Source of the DNA: Paludisphaera soli
GTDB lineage: Bacteria; Planctomycetota; Planctomycetia; Isosphaerales; Isosphaeraceae
Assembly: GCF_011064595.1 (NCBI RefSeq)
Contig: NZ_JAALJI010000014.1
Coordinates: 62,001-126,000 of the forward strand
Length of the DNA: 64,000 nt
Direction: 5' to 3'
The notes under the pieces are model-generated. The model ran no database searches, was not told the origin of the DNA, and saw only the letters and a list, made by a program, of their open reading frames with translations. Of the stretch, positions 5,005-19,092 are shown one piece after another (position 1 is the first letter of the stretch; every line of letters starts with the position of its first letter). A program made the translations under genes and the position numbers.

Positions 5005-6168
5005 TCAGCGGGGCTCGACCAGGGGTTCGGCCTTCGACGACGCGGCGTAGCCCCGCCCTTTCCAGCGGCTGGGGCGCCCCAGGATCTTGCGGGCGAACGA
5101 ATACCACTGGATCGCCACCAGCAGCGCGACGCCCACGGGGTGAAGCAAGGCCCCGGCTAGCGACTGCCGAAATCGTCGAACCCCGATCATCCGAGGTGCC
5201 CACGCGGCCGCCACGGCGACGCCGAGCGCCCCCAGTTCGAGCCCCGTCCACGGCCGGGGCCAGGACGACGCGGCCGCGACGGCCAGCGCGAACGGGGCGA
5301 CCTGGCCCATCAGGAGGATGATGGACATGGGGACGATCAGCCCCGGCGACGCCAACGCCTCGCCCGCGTTTTTGGCGAGGCCGTGCCAGACTTCGCCCGC
5401 GTTGCGGTACATCCGGCAGGTCGCCACGTCGGTCGCGTCGAACAGGTCGTTCCGCAGGCCCGCCGCCCGGAAGGCGCGGGGTAGCTTGATGCCGTCGTGG
5501 AGGGATTCGCGGATCGCCGCGTGGCCCCCGGCCTGGAAATAGCCCTCGCGGCGGGCGACGAAGAGTTGCCCGCAGCCCGCCGAGAGGGACGGCAACTGCG
5601 TCCGCCTCATGCTCACGATCGACAGGAATCCGAGCATCACGAAGTGGATCAGCGGGATCAGCAGCCGTTCCATCAGGCTTCCCGTCACTTGCCTCGGGAT
5701 CCCGCTCGCGAGGTCGACGCCCGACTCGTCCATGAATCGACCCATCCGGGAGAGGGCGTCGGGCTTCAGGATGACGTCCGCGTCCAGGAAGACGAACAGG
5801 TCGTGACGCGCCTCCTGGGCCAGCAGCCAGCAGGCCCGTTGCTTGCCGCACCAGCCCGGCGGCGGGCCCTCCCCCGAGATCAGCCTTACGCGGTCGTCGC
5901 GCGCGGCGATCGCCCGCACGACGTCGGCCGTGGCGTCGTCGGAGTCGTCGTCGAGGACCACGACCTCGATCGGCCCGCCGGCGTTCGCGAGGATCGACTC
6001 GACGGCCCAGCCGATCGCCCGCTCCTCGTTCCGCGCCGGGATCAGGACGGAGACGGCCGGAAAGTCCTGGGGAGCCTCCGGTAGCCGCCGATAAGCTCGA
6101 AGATTCCCGACGAAGACGACCGCCGGCGGGATGGCGAAGGCCAGGCAGGCGAGGAGAAGGGAGGTCAT
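5005..6168 (-). CDS. GT2 glycosyltransferase, carotenoid-type (CrtQ-like)
   Basis: A 387-residue membrane-bound family 2 glycosyltransferase. An N-terminal hydrophobic segment precedes a GT-A fold with VSVLIPARNEERAIGWAVES, the nucleotide-binding acidic cluster VVLDDDSDD and the metal-binding FLDADV. Four to five C-terminal membrane segments follow. The WCGKQRACW segment and overall layout resemble CrtQ, which glycosylates diaponeurosporenoic acid in staphyloxanthin synthesis, and related hopanoid-associated transferases. Its ATG overlaps the stop of the acyltransferase gene (ATGA), so the two are translationally coupled, and it is the last gene of the carotenoid set. Sugar and acceptor are inferred from context only. 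Confidence 0.8.
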   Translation of the reverse strand: MTSLLLACLAFAIPPAVVFVGNLRAYRRLPEAPQDFPAVSVLIPARNEERAIGWAVESILANAGGPIEVVVLDDDSDDATADVVRAIAARDDRVRLISGEGPPPGWCGKQRACWLLAQEARHDLFVFLDADVILKPDALSRMGRFMDESGVDLASGIPRQVTGSLMERLLIPLIHFVMLGFLSIVSMRRTQLPSLSAGCGQLFVARREGYFQAGGHAAIRESLHDGIKLPRAFRAAGLRNDLFDATDVATCRMYRNAGEVWHGLAKNAGEALASPGLIVPMSIILLMGQVAPFALAVAAASSWPRPWTGLELGALGVAVAAAWAPRMIGVRRFRQSLAGALLHPVGVALLVAIQWYSFARKILGRPSRWKGRGYAASSKAEPLVEPR

Positions 6169-7007
6169 GAGGGTGGACCGTCGGAGTACTGGTGGACCTG
6201 GTGTTCGCTCGTGAATCGCTGGCCCCGGAGCGCGTACCGGAGCCGGCGTCCGAATTCATAGACCCCGCCGACGCCCGCGGAACCCCGGACCAGGGTGTCG
6301 AAAGGCCCTTCTTCCCGCGTCAGCGAGGCGGCCGCCAGCCCATCTTGCGCCTCGACGAGGGCGGCTTCCAGCCTCCGCGTCCAGGAATCGGCCGATTCGG
6401 CCCCTCCGTCGACGACCGGGATCCAGGCACCGAAGCGGACGAGGATCTCGGGCCGCCGGTCGTTCCAGAACGGATACTCGATGGCGAGCGGGACGACCGA
6501 GGCGTGGGACGTGCGATGGAGGAGCCGGCCGAGTCCTTCTTTGAAGCGGACGGGCCGGTCCCGGACGTCGACGAAGCGGCCCTGTGGAGTGATCCACAGA
6601 ACCGACTCCGGCTGCGAGAGGATCGCCGAGCATCGGCGGAGGAACGCGAGGCCGCCTCGCGCGGTCTCCAGTTCGATGCCGAAGATCCCGACCCTTTCCA
6701 GGACCCGATATTGATTCACGCCCCCCGCATCCATCGGCGCGTAGTGGAGGCGCGATGGGCCGAACGACTCGCTCAAGATCAGGGCGACCATCGGGTCCCA
6801 CCAGGACGCGTGGTTCATGACCACGATCAGCGGGCCGGGCGGCGGGGGCTGGAGGTTCCCGAGCCGATCGACGCGAAGCGCGTGGAAGTTCTTCGCGACG
6901 AACCGTCGGCAATACTTGCGGAACCCTTTGAAGAACCACGGGTAGCTCGGGGGGAGGGCGGAGGGCGCCTCCCCCCGAGCCTTGGAGGCTCGGGCGGCGC
7001 GCGGCAT
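6165..7007 (-). CDS. PlsC-type acyltransferase in carotenoid cluster
   Basis: A 280-residue 1-acyl-glycerol-3-phosphate acyltransferase-like protein. The family block I is NHASWWDP, with the Asp four residues after the His (NHxSxxD); block III is the ITPQGRF region (usual form EGTR-like, here weakly conserved). The start ATG shares one base with the stop of the upstream desaturase gene (TGATG), and the stop overlaps the glycosyltransferase start, so all three are one coupled operon. Context suggests it acylates the sugar of a glycosylated carotenoid, the step CrtO performs in Staphylococcus with an unrelated enzyme. A general phospholipid acyltransferase role cannot be excluded. Confidence 0.8.
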   Translation of the reverse strand: MPRAARASKARGEAPSALPPSYPWFFKGFRKYCRRFVAKNFHALRVDRLGNLQPPPPGPLIVVMNHASWWDPMVALILSESFGPSRLHYAPMDAGGVNQYRVLERVGIFGIELETARGGLAFLRRCSAILSQPESVLWITPQGRFVDVRDRPVRFKEGLGRLLHRTSHASVVPLAIEYPFWNDRRPEILVRFGAWIPVVDGGAESADSWTRRLEAALVEAQDGLAAASLTREEGPFDTLVRGSAGVGGVYEFGRRLRYALRGQRFTSEHQVHQYSDGPPS

Positions 7008-8605: not shown

Positions 8606-10147
8606 TCAGACGACCCCGGCGAGGGGCGGGAGCGGGACGTCGTCGGAGTCGACCGGGACCGAAACGCCCAGGTCGCGGCCCACGAGCTTCGACGTGATCC
8701 GGGCGGATTCGAAGATGACGGGGAGTCCGCTCCCCGGGTGCGTCCCCCCGCCGACGAGGTAGACCGACCGGAGGTCCTCGAAGCGATTCCGGGGCCGCAG
8801 GTAGAGCATCTGCCGCAGGTTATGGGACAGGTTGAAGGTCGCCCCGAGATGGATCTCGTAGTCCTGATCCCAGTCGGCCGGCGTGACCTGACGCTCGAAC
8901 ACGATCCGCGACGCCACGTCCTTCAGGCCGAGCTTGCCGAGCTGGCGGACGGCCAGATCCCGGAACGCCGGGGCCTCGCGGGCCCAGTCGACGTTGTCGT
9001 GCTGGTGCGTGACCGGGAGGAGGACGTACAGCGTGCTCTTGCCGTCGGGAGCCAGGGACGGGTCGGTGACGCACGCGTTCTGGACGTAGAACGACGGGTC
9101 GCGCGACAGGACGTGTCGCTTCTCGATGTCGTCCAGATTCGCGATGTAGTCCTCGGCCAGGTAGATCGTGTGGTGGGCGAGGTCGTCGTAACGGCCCTCG
9201 ATCCCCAGGTAGAGCATGTACGTCGAGCAGGAGAACCGCTTGCGGGCGATCTTCCGATCCGACCAGCGGGGCCGCAGCTCGTCCGGCACCAGCCGGCTCA
9301 TCGCCCTCGCGAAGTCGGCGTTGATGACGAGGGCGTCGCACTCATGGACGCCCGACCGCGAGCGTACTCCCACGGCCTTGCGACCCTCGAACAGGATCTC
9401 CTCGACTTCGTCGTCCAGCGAGATCGTCGCTCCCAGGTCCTGCGCCACGCGGGACATCGCCTCGGAGACCGCGCCGCAGCCGCCGATCGGGTGGAACACT
9501 CCGTACTCATACTCAAGGAATGACAGTATCGAGAACAGGCTGGGGCAATTGAACGGCGACATCCCCAGGTACTTCGACTGGAAGGTCATCGCCAGCCGGA
9601 TGCGGGGGTCGTGGAAGTAGCGCTTCAATTCGCCGTCGAGCGACAGCCAGGGGCGGAGCAGGGGAAGCATCCGGGCGAGCTTCGGCGAGAGCAGGTCGCG
9701 GAACCGCAGGAAGGGCGATTCCAAGACGGTCCGGAACTGGTCCATCTTGACCCGGTTGTCGGCCATGAACCGCCTGAGTTGCGCGGCGTCGTGAGGCGAG
9801 AAGGCAGCGATCTCCCGTTCCATCCGCTCGACGTCGGGCGTGGCCTTCAGCTCGCCGCCGCCGCCGAAGACCAGGTGGTACTGCGGATCGAGTCGTACCA
9901 TCCGGGTCTCCGCGTGGAGGTCGCGTCCCACGGCGGAGAAGATCGATTCCAGGACCCTCGGATAGAGGAAGAAGGTGGGCCCCAAGTCGAACCGGAAGCC
10001 ATCCGACTCAAACGTCGACGTCCGGCCGCCGACCTGGGACTGACGCTCGAGCACGGTGACGGAGCATCCTGCCGACGCGAGGAGCATGGCGGCCGCCAAC
10101 CCCCCGGGCCCCGCCCCGATGACGACGACTCGTTTCTTGCGACTCAT
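8606..10147 (-). CDS. CrtI/CrtP-family carotenoid oxidoreductase
   Basis: A 513-residue second member of the CrtI/CrtN/CrtP family. The N-terminal dinucleotide motif is VVVIGAGPGGLAAAMLLASA with VLERQSQVGGRT after it, and the C-terminal signature is GGGTHPGSGLPVIFESARIT. It is clearly paralogous to, but not a recent copy of, its downstream neighbour. The start MSRKKRVVVIG is chosen because the open frame upstream to 10255 is arginine-rich and unlike coding sequence. It is the first gene of the minus-strand carotenoid run. No squalene/phytoene synthase gene (hpnCDE or crtB/crtM) lies in the window, so the substrate must come from elsewhere. Confidence 0.87.
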   Translation of the reverse strand: MSRKKRVVVIGAGPGGLAAAMLLASAGCSVTVLERQSQVGGRTSTFESDGFRFDLGPTFFLYPRVLESIFSAVGRDLHAETRMVRLDPQYHLVFGGGGELKATPDVERMEREIAAFSPHDAAQLRRFMADNRVKMDQFRTVLESPFLRFRDLLSPKLARMLPLLRPWLSLDGELKRYFHDPRIRLAMTFQSKYLGMSPFNCPSLFSILSFLEYEYGVFHPIGGCGAVSEAMSRVAQDLGATISLDDEVEEILFEGRKAVGVRSRSGVHECDALVINADFARAMSRLVPDELRPRWSDRKIARKRFSCSTYMLYLGIEGRYDDLAHHTIYLAEDYIANLDDIEKRHVLSRDPSFYVQNACVTDPSLAPDGKSTLYVLLPVTHQHDNVDWAREAPAFRDLAVRQLGKLGLKDVASRIVFERQVTPADWDQDYEIHLGATFNLSHNLRQMLYLRPRNRFEDLRSVYLVGGGTHPGSGLPVIFESARITSKLVGRDLGVSVPVDSDDVPLPPLAGVV

Positions 10148-10273
10148 CGGCCGTCTGTATCTCCGTAAATCGGCGTCCCGGCGCCGGCCGTCGTCCCAGC
10201 CTCTCCCACCTCGGAGCGATCCTGCAGGCGTTGATCTCGGCGAAACGGCCGACATCTGCGGGACTATCTGAAA

Positions 10274-11443
10274 TTACGACAAATTCTGTTCAGAGATCAA
10301 GCGGGCGATCGGACGAGTCCCCGGCGTGTGCTCCAGGATGATCTTGAAGATCACGGTCAAGGGGACGGCCAGGACAAGGCCGACGAAGCCCCAGAGCAAG
10401 CTCCAGAAGGCCAGACCGATGAGGACGACCAGCGGGTTGAGCCCGAGGGCCTTGCCCGTCATGGCCGGCTCGATGAGATTCGCGGTGACCCCGTGGATGG
10501 TCAGCAGGATCCCGGCGAACGCCAGCGGGGGCCAGACGTTCGGGAACTCCAGGAACGCGATCGCCAGCGGCGGGATGACGGAGATGAGCGGCCCGATGTA
10601 CGGCAGGAAGTTCCCGAAGAACGTGAGGACGCCCCACGTCGCCCCCCCGGTGATCCCGAACGCCATGCACAGCGCCCAGACCGGGATGGCCACGAGCAGG
10701 CTCGCCTTGACCTTCACCAACAGGTATTCCGAGACCGCCTCGTTGATCGACTCGACGATCTCCAGGATCCTCCCCGCCCGCGCCGAGGAGAAGCTCGATC
10801 GGATGCGCGCCGGGACCGTCGAGGCCGATTGCAGCAGGAAGATCATGTAAAACGCGATCACGACGGACTCCAGCGCCATCGACATGAAGGCCGAGGCGGC
10901 CCCCCGGACGAGGCGCTGCGACATCTCGGCCGTCAACGAGTCCTCCTCGGTCGTCTCGTCCCGGACCGTGCCGTCCCCCGCGAACGCTGGGGTGACCGAG
11001 GCGACCGCCCGTCGCACGGCTCGCTCCAGTTCCGCCTCGCGTTCCTGGTACCGGGCGCGGCTCTGGTCGATGCTCACGATGTCGTGATAGACCATCCGTC
11101 CGAGCGCGAGGATGCCGAGCGTGAATCCGAAGGTGATGAGCAGGAAGGCGAAGACGGGCCGGACTCGCCGACGCAAACGATTGTAGAAGGGCAGGAAGAG
11201 ATAGCAGAGGAGGACCGCGATCAAGAGCGGACGGAGGACCGGTTCGAGACGTTCCAGCAGGTAGAGGCTGGTCGCGACGCTGATCAGCGTGAACGCCAAG
11301 GAGCGCGAGCCCCCCAGCTCCGACGCCTTTTCCAGGATGGAACCCGCCGCCTCCAACTCCGGCGAGGCGTCGGGAGCCGCCGACGGGGGGGACTCGAAGG
11401 AGGAGGGCGGGAGGCCCGGATAATCGCCTGTGTGTGCATCCAT
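10274..11443 (-). CDS. AI-2E family transporter (PF01594 permease)
   Basis: A 389-residue multi-pass inner-membrane protein. After a Pro/Ser-rich cytoplasmic N terminus come two hydrophobic segments, a charged helical region of about 90 residues, then the family's C-terminal cluster of membrane segments with FFGNFLPYIGPLISVIPP, the ANLIEPAMTGKALGLNPLVV motif and WGFVGLVLAVPL. These are hallmarks of the YhhT/PerM/TqsA family. The exported substrate cannot be inferred; family members include autoinducer-2 exporters and Na+/H+ antiporters. It is separated from the carotenoid genes by 126 bases, so shared transcription is possible but unproven. Confidence 0.88.
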   Translation of the reverse strand: MDAHTGDYPGLPPSSFESPPSAAPDASPELEAAGSILEKASELGGSRSLAFTLISVATSLYLLERLEPVLRPLLIAVLLCYLFLPFYNRLRRRVRPVFAFLLITFGFTLGILALGRMVYHDIVSIDQSRARYQEREAELERAVRRAVASVTPAFAGDGTVRDETTEEDSLTAEMSQRLVRGAASAFMSMALESVVIAFYMIFLLQSASTVPARIRSSFSSARAGRILEIVESINEAVSEYLLVKVKASLLVAIPVWALCMAFGITGGATWGVLTFFGNFLPYIGPLISVIPPLAIAFLEFPNVWPPLAFAGILLTIHGVTANLIEPAMTGKALGLNPLVVLIGLAFWSLLWGFVGLVLAVPLTVIFKIILEHTPGTRPIARLISEQNLS

Positions 11444-11457
11444 CGTAAACGCGCTCC

Positions 11458-12180
11458 TCAGTGTCGAAGGGCACCGTCATTAGTCCAGGGAATCGCGGAC
11501 TCAACCCAGTCGAGAAGCTCCGTGGGGTCGAGTTTCGCAGCGAAGTCGGCGAGGGCGTTGCCCAACGGGCAGCCGAATCCGGCCCAGAATCCTTCCAGCG
11601 GGTCGATCCGGAGGCCGGAATTCCGAGGCCGCGGCACACCCTGCCCGACCTCGCCGGCGGGCATGGCCGAGATCGGAACCGCGTCGAAACCGAAGGCTCG
11701 GACGATCGGCCGAGCCCACGTCGGCCTGTCCATCACCTCGGGGCCGACGACGTTGATCAGCCCGGAGACCGCCGTCCCGTCCAGGCGGACCACGGCGCGA
11801 TCGACGTTCAGGCGGTGGGTAGGGCCGCTCGGGATGGTGGGAGGCTCGCGCCGGCTCATCGTACGGATGAGCTGGCAGGCGAAATTCTCGCCCTGTCGCT
11901 CCGGCCCGAAGGCTGGGCAAGTTCGAGACGTCGTGAGGCGATCCCCCAACGTGCGTTCGAGCACGGCCCCGGCGTGGTGATCGTCGCAACCGCGAATCCA
12001 GAGCGGATTGGTCGGCGACTCCTGGGATGGGGGCCCATGGGGACGGTCGAAGACGTCGGTCGAGGTGGGAGTCGGTCGAGAAGCCGACGAAAGGGCTGAC
12101 GGACTGGGCGTCGCGGAGCGCCTTCCAGGGCTCCTTGGCGCCGGCGTCCTCGGATGACAGAACGTCGGGTCGCGCGACCG
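11458..12180 (-). pseudogene. Decayed rmlD-like dTDP-4-dehydrorhamnose reductase
   Basis: The C-terminal part reads like RmlD/sugar-nucleotide reductases: FGPERQGENFACQLIRTMSR, a VDRAVVRL stretch, SGLINVVGPEVMDRPTWARP, IVRAFGFD and PRPRNSGLRIDPLEGF. The middle (STDVFDRPHGP..ESPTNP) matches the usual STDxVFDG..GP..E..xxNP. Two frames are needed to read it, because gtcggtcgag is repeated 16 bases apart at 12055 and 12071; removing one 16-base unit restores one continuous frame through FVGFSTDVFDRPHGP. The catalytic YxxxK and the N-terminal GxxGxxG cannot be seen, so further decay is present. The upstream limit is approximate. A short protein could still be made from an internal ATG at 11964. 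Confidence 0.62.
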
Positions 12181-12387
12181 TGAGCGGTGACGACATCCCG
12201 GATCCGCTCCTTCCCAGATGCCGCGCCAGGCGCGGCCGCCTCGTCGGCCTGGCCGATCCGAGCGACATCATAAGGCTGGCGGGATCGGGAAGGAAGCGTG
12301 GGGTAGATGGATTCGGATCGGGGTCGGACTGTCGCGCCGCGGGCCCCTCGCTCGCGGAAGGGCCGCGCGGAGCGTTTCCCTCGTCCG

Positions 12388-13041
12388 TCAGCTGTTCCGG
12401 GTGCCGAACACGCCACCCCGAGGGCCGAACGCCGCGACGTACGAAGGCAGGATGCCGAGCGTGCCGTTCGTCCCCCCCGCGAGGGTGACGAATCGGACGC
12501 GCTGCATGTTGCTGGCGAGTTCGGCGCGGTCCGCGGCGGTGCCGATGGCGTTCTCCATCAGTTCGGCGACGGAGAGATCGCCCTCCGACGTCCCGTCGAG
12601 GGCGGGGTTGGCGCTCGTCAGGGCCGTGCGATTGGAGAGACCGACCCCTCCCGTCGGGTTCCCGGCGCCTAGGCCTCGTCCGTAAGGGAGCTTGACCTCC
12701 AGGGCGGCCAGCCGGGAGTCGAGGCTCGCCAGGCCCGTCCCGGCGCGATAGAGGTACGGCTGCGAGCCCTGCCCGTAGGTGCCGACCCCCACCTTGTCGT
12801 AGAAGCGAGCGGTGAAGCCCCCCTCGCGATCGTAGAGCGTCAGGACGTTGCGCGAGAAGTTGTTGATCGCCACGTCCACCGACCGCTGGACGTTCTCGTA
12901 GGTCCGGCTGGTCAGCACGAAGGCGCCTTTCAGGCCCAAGGTGTTCGATCCTCCCCACGCGGCCGGGAACCGGAAGCCGCTCAGGAGGGCGCGGGCTTCC
13001 ATCGGGTTCGGCTGCTCCGGCACGAACTGGTGCTTCTTCAT
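12388..13041 (-). CDS. Hypothetical protein with planctomycete N-terminal tag
   Basis: A 217-residue protein beginning MKKHQFVPEQPNPMEARALLSGF after a good GGGAG site. The 'P-x-MEARALLSG' segment is the short N-terminal tag common on planctomycete extracellular proteins (usually LExRxLLS), which often stands in place of a normal signal peptide. The rest is mixed alpha/beta with LKGAFVLTSRTYENVQRSV, a Gly/Thr/Asn-rich centre and the end GGVFGTRNS. No enzymatic motif is visible. It is probably exported or surface associated. I do not know the family. It lies between the kinase gene and the rmlD remnant. Confidence 0.68.
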   Translation of the reverse strand: MKKHQFVPEQPNPMEARALLSGFRFPAAWGGSNTLGLKGAFVLTSRTYENVQRSVDVAINNFSRNVLTLYDREGGFTARFYDKVGVGTYGQGSQPYLYRAGTGLASLDSRLAALEVKLPYGRGLGAGNPTGGVGLSNRTALTSANPALDGTSEGDLSVAELMENAIGTAADRAELASNMQRVRFVTLAGGTNGTLGILPSYVAAFGPRGGVFGTRNS

Positions 13042-13411
13042 CGAGTGTTCTCCCTGGAATGCCTGATGAGTCTCGGCGCGTCCACCGGGGCGCGGAATTG
13101 CCCATCGGCGACTCCCAGGCCGCCGTGCTCTCGCCCGCACGAGGATCGCAGGAATCCCTCCCGCTCCACGGCCGACGGCGCATCGTCGGATCGGGCGATC
13201 GGCTCGTTTTGAATCCGCCGAGGCAAATCTCGTGTGAAGACCGAGCGTCTCATCGACCGGGGATACGGCGAACTTTCCCGAATCTTACGAACGATTTAGC
13301 GACAAAAGAAGGCGGCCGATCGCGCGACGCGGCGGGCAGGGAGCCTGGAACAGGGGGTCTCGGAAGTCCCGAGATCGTTCGCAAAGCTGGGGATGCGCTG
13401 AGATGGAGGGA
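13042..13411. other. Non-coding gap upstream of tagged protein
   Basis: About 370 bases between two minus-strand genes. The segment near 13270-13310 is less GC-rich (cgaatcttacgaacgattt) than its surroundings and may hold the promoter of the downstream gene, but no clear -35/-10 pair or hairpin was found. Confidence 0.35.
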
Positions 13412-14668
13412 TCAGGGTTTGGGGTCGTCGACCTTCTCGGCGGCCTTGAGTGCGGCGTCGAGGAGTTCGGCCTCGGCCCTCCTCATGTTGGGCCCCTCGA
13501 CCTTCGCGCCTTCGGCGCCGGTCGGGCTGCCCTGGGAGAGCCAGATCTCGTAGGCTCGGGCCTCGACCTCTTTTCGGACCTGCTCCTCGGCCTTGAACCA
13601 GTTGGCGGTGCTGACCTCGTCACCCTCCTCGCCTTCGGGAGAGCCTTGCGCCACCCAGAGCTCATGGGCGCGCATGCTGGTCAGGCGGCGAAACTCGGCG
13701 GAAGGTCCGGGGGCGTCTTCCGGGACGCCTTGGGCCGCGAGGACCTCTTGAGGAGGGACCTCGCGAGCGGGGAGGACGCTATACACCAAAGCCGCCGCCG
13801 CGAGGAGCGTCAGGGCGACCAAGCCGGTCGCGATCAAGGGGCGGGAAGAGGGAAGGGAATCGGTGGCCAGCCCCCGGTCCAGGTCGGCCAGGAAATCCTC
13901 CAGGCGGGCGTAGCGACTTTCGGGGTCGAGGGAAAGGGCCTTCATGAGCACCCCGTCCAGTCGCTTGTCGAGCGTCGGCTCGACGGTCGAGGGGGGCTTG
14001 AAATTGCCCACCGGGCGTTTTCCCGTCGCCATCTCGTAGGCCACGGCCGCGAGCGAATACTGGTCGGACCGGGCGTCGACCGGACCGCCGTTCTGCTGCT
14101 CGGGCGACGCGTAGACGAGAGTGCCGATGCCCCGGTTGGTCCGCGTCAGGTCGCCGCGCTCGGACAGGAGGACCGCCAGCCCGAAATCGGCGACCTTCAC
14201 CAGGGAGTCGGTCGGCGTCAGGATGTTCTCCGGCTTCAGGTCCCGATGGAGGATGCCCTTGGCGTGGAGATGCACCAGGGCCTGGCCGATCTGGGCGAGG
14301 ATGGCCCGGCGTTTGGCGGCGGGGACGGCGCGGCCGCTCCGCAGGAACTTGCGGAGGTCGCCGTTCTCGATGTATTCGGTCACCAGGAACGGCTCGCCGG
14401 TCTCCGGGAGCGTGCCGAAATCGAGGACGGTCAGCACGTGGGGGTGCGACACCATCGCCAGGATTTTCGCCTCGCGTCGGAACCGCTCGCGACGCTCCGA
14501 GGCGTGCTCGGCGTCGGGGGCGGTGAGGAGCTTCACGCAGACGGCCCGCCCCAGGTTGAGCTGCCGCGCCAGGTAGACGCGGCCCATGCCGCCGCGGCCG
14601 ATCTCGCGCACGACCTCATATCCGGGGACGTCGGGGACGGTCTCGGGATTTACATCGCTCCGCGGCAT
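13412..14668 (-). CDS. Hanks-type Ser/Thr kinase with two DUF2934 repeats
   Basis: A 418-residue transmembrane kinase. The kinase domain (about 16-285) has the Gly loop GRGGMGRVYLAR, the VCVKLL lysine, catalytic HRDLKPEN, ADFGLAV and YASPEQ, so it should be active. One membrane helix follows (LIATGLVALTLLAAAALVYS, about 300-322). The C-terminal, presumably outside, part carries two repeats of a DUF2934-like unit: RAHELWVAQGSPEG and RAYEIWLSQGSPTG, each followed by an acidic insert and a helix (NWFKAEEQV / NMRRAEAEL). DUF2934 normally occurs as a small cytoplasmic-looking protein, so its use as the sensor side of a kinase is unusual. The start follows GGGAGGA. Confidence 0.9.
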   Translation of the reverse strand: MPRSDVNPETVPDVPGYEVVREIGRGGMGRVYLARQLNLGRAVCVKLLTAPDAEHASERRERFRREAKILAMVSHPHVLTVLDFGTLPETGEPFLVTEYIENGDLRKFLRSGRAVPAAKRRAILAQIGQALVHLHAKGILHRDLKPENILTPTDSLVKVADFGLAVLLSERGDLTRTNRGIGTLVYASPEQQNGGPVDARSDQYSLAAVAYEMATGKRPVGNFKPPSTVEPTLDKRLDGVLMKALSLDPESRYARLEDFLADLDRGLATDSLPSSRPLIATGLVALTLLAAAALVYSVLPAREVPPQEVLAAQGVPEDAPGPSAEFRRLTSMRAHELWVAQGSPEGEEGDEVSTANWFKAEEQVRKEVEARAYEIWLSQGSPTGAEGAKVEGPNMRRAEAELLDAALKAAEKVDDPKP

Positions 14669-15016
14669 GGCCGTTCCTCCCGGATGCGGGGGCCGAAGGC
14701 GGATCGCCCGCCTCGACCCGGACGCTGTCGGAGACGTCGGACGGACCGGGGTGGAAGATTCGCAGGCCTCGCATCCCGCGGGACCCCCTGTATCGATTTG
14801 AACAGATGTCTTCACGTCTTTCAAGCCCGACGTCCCGGCGGGGACCGGCGTGCGCGACGACCGGGGTCGGACGCTTCCTCCAACCTGCGATGGCGTCTGG
14901 CGTGCTCGGACGAGGCCGATTACACTCGTCGCAGGTCCGTCGGGGCGAGGCCGATCGAGGGGCGTGGGACGCCCCCGGCCTACCATGCCCGGGAGGGCCC
15001 GCGAGGCGGTGGATTG
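14669..15016. other. Divergent intergenic region
   Basis: About 350 bases between the divergent kinase and membrane-protein genes, so it should carry promoters in both directions. The AT-richer stretch around 14788-14825 (tatcgatttgaacagatgtcttcacg) is the likeliest promoter area. No operator repeat was recognised. Confidence 0.35.
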
Positions 15017-16450
15017 ATGGACTCGTTCGGCCCCCCTTGGATCTGGGCCCAGGCGACCGGGTTCGCCGCGCCGGCCAACCCCGCCGCCACCGCCTACCTG
15101 GCGCTCCGACGTTGGTGCGGCGGCCTGACCCTTTCGCCATCCCGCCCGGCACCGGAGTGGGACGTCTTCCTGATCCTCGGCGCGGCGCCGCTGGTGCTCG
15201 CCGTCGCGGCCTCTCTGTTCCAGGGTCCCGGGACGACGTTCCGGCAGGTGGTGGACGTCTTTGGCCACGCCAGGCTCTTCCGCGAGGCGGTGACGCGCAT
15301 CTGGCAGGCCGGTCGCATGGTGACGATCCTCCTGACCTGCACTGTCCTCTCGTGGACCGGGAGTCAGAGCCTCGCCTTCTTCTCGGGTGACGCCGAACGG
15401 GGAAGGTCGGACCTGCTGCTGCTGGAACGGAGCCGGGGGCCGGTCGAACTCATCCTGGAGCATGGAGCGGCCGCGGCGACCACCCCGCTCCGCGACGTGG
15501 CCGGGCTGGGGGACTACCTGCCGCTCCTCGTCGCCGCCGTCGTGATCGTCTACTCGTCCGCCAGGAGTCGCTCGTCGTCCCCGAAGCCGGGCCGGGGATA
15601 CGCCGCGGAGGGCGATGCTGGATCGTTCGACGACGCCTCCGGGTGGCGAAGCGCCGTCGGTGCCTGCGCGATCCTCTACGTCCTCTACCGGCTCTTCGCC
15701 AGGGCCGCGGGGGGGGGCGAGCTTCCCGTCGGGAATTGCCTCCTCCTGGAGGTGCTCATCATCCCCGCGCTGATGCTGGCCTGCGACGGCTTCCTCCTGG
15801 CCTGGATCCTCGCCGAGCTTCGAGACGGCGGCTCGGCGGACGACCAGGCCGGCGCGATCGACGCCCGGCCGGCAATCGGCCTGATGCCCGCGGCGTGCGT
15901 CGTGTGCCTCGCCGTCCTCCCGGCTCGCTACGCGGCGACCCTGATCCTCCTGGCGTCGCAGCATCTCCCCGCGACGTGGATGGCGGGCGAGGCGGGGCGA
16001 GCCGTCCGCTGGTCGCTCGGGCCAGGTCTGCTCATGCTCCAGGCGGGCTCGTTGGTGGTGATGGGGATCGCGGGACCGGCGGCCTGGGGACGGGGGTCGA
16101 TCCGCGAAGCCGTCCGCGGCCTCGGCCGACTGCTGACCCGTGAGGGAGGGAGGCTCGTCGTGGTGGCCGTCGTGGCGGCGCTCGGTTGCGGGTGCCTCTC
16201 GGCGCTGGCGTATGCGGTCCTGTTCCTGCTGCCGCCCGCCGGGTGGGTGTTGCCGGCGGCCGACGCCTACGCCCACTATGTGAGCCTTCCCGTCGGACTC
16301 TGGACGCTCTCCGCCCTGGTCCAGCTCGGCGAACAGAGCCTGCCGACGGCCCGCCTGGCCCGCGACCCCAACGAAGTCGAACCCGAGATCGTCCCGATCC
16401 GCGGGCAAGGCGACGCGGCCGCCGAGGGCTCGGCCCTGACCCTCGGCTGA
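15017..16450 (+). CDS. Large multi-pass membrane protein, unknown
   Basis: A 477-residue protein with about eight hydrophobic segments. These include LILGAAPLVLAVAASLF, MVTILLTCTVLSWTG, YLPLLVAAVVIVYSS, LLLEVLIIPALMLAC, LMPAACVVCLAVLPA, LMLQAGSLVVMGIAGPA, LVVVAVVAALGCGCLSAL and AYAVLFLLPPAGWVLPAA. Soluble loops are short and polar, and the C terminus is a charged tail. No transporter signature or catalytic motif was recognised. The first visible residues (MDSFGPPWIWAQATGFAAPANPAATA) are soluble. The same frame stays open far upstream because of GC bias, but that part overlaps the opposite-strand kinase, so this ATG is preferred. It is divergent from that kinase, which may be a functional partner. 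Confidence 0.72.
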   Translation: MDSFGPPWIWAQATGFAAPANPAATAYLALRRWCGGLTLSPSRPAPEWDVFLILGAAPLVLAVAASLFQGPGTTFRQVVDVFGHARLFREAVTRIWQAGRMVTILLTCTVLSWTGSQSLAFFSGDAERGRSDLLLLERSRGPVELILEHGAAAATTPLRDVAGLGDYLPLLVAAVVIVYSSARSRSSSPKPGRGYAAEGDAGSFDDASGWRSAVGACAILYVLYRLFARAAGGGELPVGNCLLLEVLIIPALMLACDGFLLAWILAELRDGGSADDQAGAIDARPAIGLMPAACVVCLAVLPARYAATLILLASQHLPATWMAGEAGRAVRWSLGPGLLMLQAGSLVVMGIAGPAAWGRGSIREAVRGLGRLLTREGGRLVVVAVVAALGCGCLSALAYAVLFLLPPAGWVLPAADAYAHYVSLPVGLWTLSALVQLGEQSLPTARLARDPNEVEPEIVPIRGQGDAAAEGSALTLG

Positions 16451-17034
16451 TCGACGCGAACTTTCGGCTCTGCGGCGCCCTCCGAAGGGGAGGCGGGCGA
16501 TCGACGCCGGGCGAACCCGGCGCGGGCGTAGTCGCAGGGCGCGGTACCCGGCGACGCGATGCGCGGAGTGGGAAAAAATGCCGGAAAGCTTCGCCCGGAA
16601 CGTCCACGACGTACGTACTGGAGTCGGCGGCGCCGTCGGGGCACCGCGGCGATCCGTGAGAGGCTGGGGCTTCCGGTTCGCTTGACAGATTCGCGACGGC
16701 GGGGTTGTAATGGCGATCGACGACTCCAGACCACCAACGTGTCACCCGTCGTCGAGAGCGGCTTGCCCTGGGAGACCCATTCGTCCGCCTTCCGGACCCC
16801 TCGCTCGCTTCGCCGACCTTCGCGGGATCCCTCGCCAGGTCCAGCCCTCCCCTTTCGCCTCGCAATCGTCCCGTTGGCAATACGGTCGCGCCTTGAGCCG
16901 GAGCGGGGCGTCGCGCGCCTTTCCCGCACCGGCCGAATCGGGATCCTCTCCTCTCCGAGCGACCGATTCGCCGACTCGATCTCCTCTCGGTGGGCAAACA
17001 GCCTGAAACAACGACCTACAGGAGGATCCTAGTC
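16451..17034. other. Leader/promoter region of the prkA operon
   Basis: About 580 bases without a credible gene, upstream of prkA. It contains a sigma-70-like promoter candidate (separate entry) and ends in a consensus ribosome-binding site. The resulting leader of about 320 bases is long; no known riboswitch fold was recognised in it. Confidence 0.5.
16682..16711 (+). promoter_or_regulatory. Candidate sigma-70-type promoter for prkA operon
   Basis: An exact TTGACA -35 box is followed after 18 bases by TGTAAT, five of six matches to TATAAT. It points toward the PrkA kinase gene about 320 bases downstream. This is a motif reading only; planctomycete promoters often differ from consensus. Confidence 0.42.

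Positions 17035-19092
<2,058 letters not shown>

Follow-up and report, generated by a model that had tools for sequence, protein, structure and literature searches.

What might a Ser/Thr kinase do with a C-terminal tail built of two DUF2934 units, and on which side of the membrane would it carry them? The question is raised by a gene in a 64,000-nucleotide stretch of the Paludisphaera soli genome (contig NZ_JAALJI010000014.1, positions 62,001 to 126,000; hereafter the window), which an earlier note, made from the letters alone, had described as a kinase sensing signals through tandem DUF2934 repeats on the outside of the cell.

The gene is a minus-strand frame that opens with ATG after a GGAGG and closes with TGA (Table 1). 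A Pfam scan of its product matched two families, Pkinase (6.6e-46) and DUF2934 (PF11154; 1.8e-6), and an alignment of eight homologues shows that K46, E66, the HRD at 141–143, N148, the DFG at 161–163 and the PEQ at 189–191 are invariant. The catalytic Lys, Glu, HRD, Asn and DFG that define Hanks-type Ser/Thr kinases are thus all in place, and on these motifs the protein is a Hanks-type (PknB-like) kinase. A frame artefact was ruled out, since all homologues keep the minus-strand frame in register; the long plus-strand frames that overlap the gene are put down to the high G+C content. Scans for a promoter and a terminator at the gene returned nothing above chance.

Table 1 Features of the kinase gene and its product (coordinates are positions in the window).
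Feature	Position	Strand	Basis and remarks
Whole kinase gene, 418 aa + stop	13412..14668	(-)	Minus-strand ORF read 14668 -> 13412; RBS-like GGAGG 5' of ATG
Hanks-type Ser/Thr kinase domain, residues 17-265	13874..14620	(-)	PF00069 6.6e-46 (Pfam stretch 17-235) and homologue alignment
Single predicted transmembrane helix, residues 278-296	13781..13837	(-)	Kyte-Doolittle 2.28; other segments all <=1.3
Variable Pro/Ala-rich linker, residues 297-322	13703..13780	(-)	~36% identity, 42% gapped columns (8 homologues)
DUF2934 unit 1, residues 323-366	13571..13702	(-)	PF11154 27.7 bits alone; 5-residue loop insertion vs canonical DUF2934
DUF2934-like unit 2, residues 367-405	13454..13570	(-)	PF11154 19.4 bits alone; degenerate, N-M-R where N-W usual

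The DUF2934 assignment, originally made by eye, passed the profile search that had been set as its refutation test: against the full protein PF11154 scores 27.9 bits (E = 1.8e-6, two stretches at E<=1), above the Pfam gathering threshold of 22 bits. The note had placed the repeats at residues 340–418, which is the right part of the protein but a slightly late range; the pair occupies residues 323–405 (window 13454–13702). When the units are scored singly, the first is above the 22-bit cut-off, while the second falls below it (E = 8.5e-4) and so does not stand as an independent match. Its similarity to the profile lies mostly in the first helix, and its second conserved Trp is lost, so that by these scores unit 2 is a degenerate copy, best named DUF2934-like; in the homologue from genome G028 the corresponding unit reaches 24.7 bits and is over the cut-off. 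An alignment with 31 further DUF2934 segments shows unit 1 to follow the common pattern and, in addition, to carry the loop insertion. Searched with PF11154, the whole genome yields the kinase locus at 24 bits as one of only two DUF2934 loci, and the same search is silent in 14 control genomes; an IUPAC pattern search of the genome gave 392 matches, too many to be informative. A chance match to DUF2934 was ruled out, since every homologue matches the profile (8/8 aligned homologues, best 2.3e-12).

In order to establish how far this architecture extends, relatives were collected by whole-protein and profile searches. Homologues with the pair at the protein end occur in each of the other five genomes of the genus (59–68% identity), in G028 (52%) and in G035 (46%). 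A profile of the tail pair recovers nine kinases in 9 of 45 genomes of the family (E = 1e-31 to 2e-41), although eight of these had built the profile, so that their matches show the pair to be intact and are no independent discovery, whereas the ninth, in G437, was new; elsewhere there are weak matches only. The nine are spread over three genera (6/6 genomes in the genus, two in g7 and one in g19). In samples of 392 genomes from the phylum and 347 from the class the tail-pair profile gave no further kinase at that level, among a limited number of scored candidates in which rare cases may have been missed. One homologue, from Planctomycetales bacterium 71-10 (L066), is a kinase identical in sequence to that of G004.

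A class-wide search with PF11154 uncovered two further kinases, L131 (G443) and L132 (G444), both of genus g9, in which the order is kinase, membrane helix, two DUF2934 units and an FGE-sulfatase domain identified by Pfam (DUF2934 E = 2e-11 and 2e-15; FGE E = 4e-34 and 1e-29, respectively). A third relative, L040 (G029), shares the kinase type and ends in an FGE-like region but lacks DUF2934; its C-terminus matches the FGE-related NCBIfam models EgtB, SenA and GldK, all below their cut-offs. The planctomycete kinase–DUF2934 fusions that the note proposed to look for therefore exist, nine in the family including the window kinase, plus L131 and L132. In a tree of kinase domains these 11 kinases and the FGE-only L040 form one clade (100/98), and constraining the 11 DUF2934 kinases to a single group gives no rejection (p-AU 0.38). 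A single acquisition of the pair in an ancestor of the kinase clade is probable, and in the simplest history the FGE domain was gained, lost or exchanged afterwards. By the planctomycete sequences compared, the architecture is no single-genome oddity, being conserved in four genera, but it is lineage-restricted.

Conservation within the protein is uneven. Among the eight homologues the mean pairwise identity is 62% for the kinase, 53% for unit 1 and 49% for unit 2, compared with 30% for the helix region and 36%, with many gaps, for the linker. Invariant positions comprise R-A, W, Q-G-x-P, N-W and A in unit 1, and A, W, G-x-P-x-G and N in unit 2. An AlphaFold model of the tail, built from a two-sequence alignment, has a mean pLDDT of 83.6 and helices at model residues 4–20, 26–58 and 73–93, with the second helix of unit 1 continuous with the first helix of unit 2; the five tail models range from pLDDT 59 to 84, and it is the helix pattern alone that can be trusted. 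The full-length model, also from two sequences, is poor (pLDDT 43.9) and has the same helix pattern. A Foldseek search of the tail model against the PDB gave no match with E<=0.001, and a second structural search reached a best Z of 5.5, mostly to histone-fold-like helices at 6–7 A rmsd, which amounts to helical-bundle background.

A helical and charged tail with a degenerate second unit, which in two relatives separates the membrane helix from the FGE domain, would suit a mere spacer or stalk, kept for its length and helicity without a specific partner. We consider that decidedly improbable, as a spacer would have no need of the R-A, W, Q-G-x-P and N-W residues that are invariant even in divergent homologues.

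The location of the pair follows from the membrane topology. One clear hydrophobic helix lies C-terminal to the kinase domain in every homologue tested, with Kyte-Doolittle values between 1.65 and 2.49 across the nine tandem-tail kinases, and is weakest in L035 and L037, where it is marginal on the biological scale. With one predicted membrane helix between kinase and tail, the protein has the layout of a single-pass receptor-like kinase; the note's description of two tandem units following one membrane helix is upheld, the pair being conserved in all nine kinases even though unit 2 is below threshold alone. The helix is Ala-rich and in most homologues has Arg or Lys ahead of it and the Pro-rich linker behind it, and Cys is absent from all nine tails. 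With a kinase domain in the cytoplasm and one crossing only, the pair should lie outside the cell, in a topology drawn from hydropathy only. A survey of planctomycete kinases describes 70–80% of them as having membrane helices, mostly one, with the kinase domains all predicted to be cytoplasmic, and places the FGE (sulfatase modifying enzyme 1) domains of single-pass Ser/Thr kinases mostly on the periplasmic side (PMC11032199). The position of the pair between the helix and such a domain in L131 and L132 lends added support to the outer location. That the pair is extracytoplasmic is therefore a good prediction, in line with the outer placement that the note had assumed.

A contrary topology would have the hydrophobic segment non-spanning or only part-inserted, leaving the pair in the cytoplasm beside the kinase, where it could recruit substrates. 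An Ala-rich helix that is marginal in some homologues would suit this, as would the other DUF2934 fusions with an assignable compartment, which are mostly cytoplasmic (SpoIIE phosphatases, P-type ATPase tails, MalQ and PRC-barrel proteins). The retention of the helix in every homologue tested, its Arg/Lys and Pro-rich flanks in most of them, and the C-terminal FGE domain of the two relatives, of a type mostly periplasmic on planctomycete kinases, make this topology quite unlikely, and we retain the extracytoplasmic one.

With the pair outside, the predicted layout resembles that of PASTA Hanks kinases (PknB/Stk1, NF033483), which likewise combine a cytoplasmic kinase, one helix and repeated small extracytoplasmic domains. 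The NF033483 model matches the kinase part over residues 17–270, but the protein scores 237 bits against a cut-off of 450 and bears a helical DUF2934 pair in place of PASTA; a Pfam scan of the tail at E<=1 found no PASTA or propeller family. The view that the pair replaces PASTA or beta-propeller sensors thus holds insofar as no such domain is in the tail, but not as a simple substitution, since relatives carry the pair alone, the pair with FGE-sulfatase, or FGE-sulfatase alone. Single-pass planctomycete kinases with FGE-sulfatase (SUMF1-like) domains belong to the same clade (L040, L131 and L132) and share the single helix; the window kinase differs from them in lacking an FGE domain by Pfam, whereas L131 and L132 combine FGE with the DUF2934 pair. 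Single-pass planctomycete Ser/Thr kinases with TPR or WD40 domains also carry repeated accessory domains, mostly periplasmic, in the survey's account; the accessory unit here is instead DUF2934, which is absent from the survey's main text (PMC11032199). In the passages of the open-access literature that mention DUF2934, the domain appears in lists or gene contexts, with neither a function nor a Ser/Thr kinase fusion. DUF2934 on a Ser/Thr kinase is thus unreported in the literature searched, with the reservation that the survey's supplementary tables may list such an architecture.

DUF2934 itself is common among planctomycetes, being present in 114 of 347 genomes from the class, and is found in other bacteria too. 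Small DUF2934 proteins and fusions match the same profile and share with the window units the pattern A-x-x-x-W-x-x-x-G ... W-x-x-A, but usually have one copy and are small or cytoplasmic, whereas the kinase has two, predicted to be outside, the loop being longer and the second unit degenerate. Fusion partners in the phylum include SpoIIE phosphatases with GAF domains (L113, 1386–3236; L137, 986–2473), a 4-alpha-glucanotransferase (MalQ; L134, 2095–3789), a PRC-barrel protein (L109), DUF4058 (L142) and a YCF48/BNR protein (L145), and by sequence the domain lies near the ends of two P-type ATPases (L107, L108). In P-type ATPases the ends face the cytoplasm, and from established knowledge of their families we take most of the hosts found to be cytoplasmic, which makes an outer location unusual for DUF2934.

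Several further DUF2934 loci were observed along the way. Proteins of approximately 290 residues, with an N-terminal DUF2934 and a zinc-finger-like CRFCE...CxxC part, are widespread in the family and occur in the window's genome as well (L001, L005, L007, L016, L019, L021 and others); L001 has a weak HNH_5 match, below the cut-off of that family. A 520-residue Pro- and acid-rich frame with a DUF2934 unit at its end, a further uncommon host of the domain, has no family assigned (L031:55-1617, on G005:C4). Two similar large proteins (L133:924-2912 and L136:2319-4250) have a C-terminal DUF2934 and, by eye, a nuclease-like ECKA stretch, and are possibly restriction-type or defence enzymes; L133 has no Pfam match besides DUF2934. 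In a verrucomicrobial Opitutaceae MAG (L067), small DUF2934-like frames (5917–6144 and 5978–6628) adjoin a ferritin-like gene, and in Sinorhizobium a DUF2934 gene and a ferritin-like gene are both listed among induced genes (PMC9100948).

The breadth of these hosts bears on what the pair might do. It could be a true sensor, as the note had supposed, with a small extracellular ligand, soluble or derived from the wall, switching the kinase in the manner of PASTA. The pair comes behind one helix and a flexible linker, an arrangement shared with PASTA kinases, and its units are conserved where the linker is variable. There is also a hint of glucan: 11 of 32 DUF2934 segments match Pfam DUF7067 of the plant alpha-glucan water dikinase (best 6e-5), a weak link that suggests a distant relationship between the two families and that stands alongside the MalQ fusion. 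On the other hand, a domain found on many unrelated and mostly cytoplasmic proteins is a poor fit for a dedicated extracellular ligand, and a sequence search of the PDB yielded no solved relative of DUF2934. A small-ligand sensor is accordingly unlikely in our judgement. The spread over functionally unrelated, mostly cytoplasmic hosts is easier to reconcile with a generic docking or interaction module than with a ligand sensor, and favours a general interaction role over the signal sensing first proposed.

The gene neighbourhood was searched for possible partners. On the 3' side of the kinase, 6/6 genomes of the genus have a gene for a 250-residue protein (window 12388–13140), followed by an AI-2E-type transporter and a gene resembling phytoene desaturase; the 250-residue protein is of a small surface type, with an M-E-x-R-A-L-L-S-G motif near its N-terminus. 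The other flank holds prkA, in most genomes of the genus with a fast-evolving multi-helix membrane protein in between, and neither this protein nor the 250-residue one matches a Pfam family. The block from crtI-like gene through AI-2E transporter, surface-type protein, kinase and divergent membrane protein to prkA (window 8606–19092) is largely conserved in 6/6 genomes of the genus. The gene at 12388–13140 was rejected as a conserved partner: it is adjacent to the kinase throughout the genus and was not found near the homologues of G028, G035 and G437. As the block as a whole was not found around those three homologues either, no partner can be named from the neighbourhood.

PknB-type Hanks kinases can be raised in activity by association, via trans-phosphorylation. 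We propose, at what we judge to be about an even chance, that the window gene encodes a single-pass Hanks kinase whose outer DUF2934 pair binds proteins or associates with itself, so joining kinases to each other or to a partner in the envelope. The catalytic domain would sit in the cytoplasm and be followed by one membrane pass, and the tandem pair outside would fold as short, long and short helices. By tethering kinases to one another or to the envelope, the pair may promote clustering or dimerisation, which would lead to phosphorylation of the activation loop and higher activity, as in other RD-type Hanks kinases.

A bolder version, which we regard as a long shot, is that DUF2934 is a general helical interaction module, a distant relation of the helical DUF7067 units in plant alpha-glucan water dikinase, that this kinase clade moved outside as a receptor pair; if true, the kinase would be a route to the first function of DUF2934, possibly glucan or protein binding. 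A kinase fusion that is both conserved and defined in position offers a testable handle on DUF2934. It also extends the large kinase repertoire of planctomycetes by one accessory domain and illustrates the exchange of accessory regions within one kinase clade.
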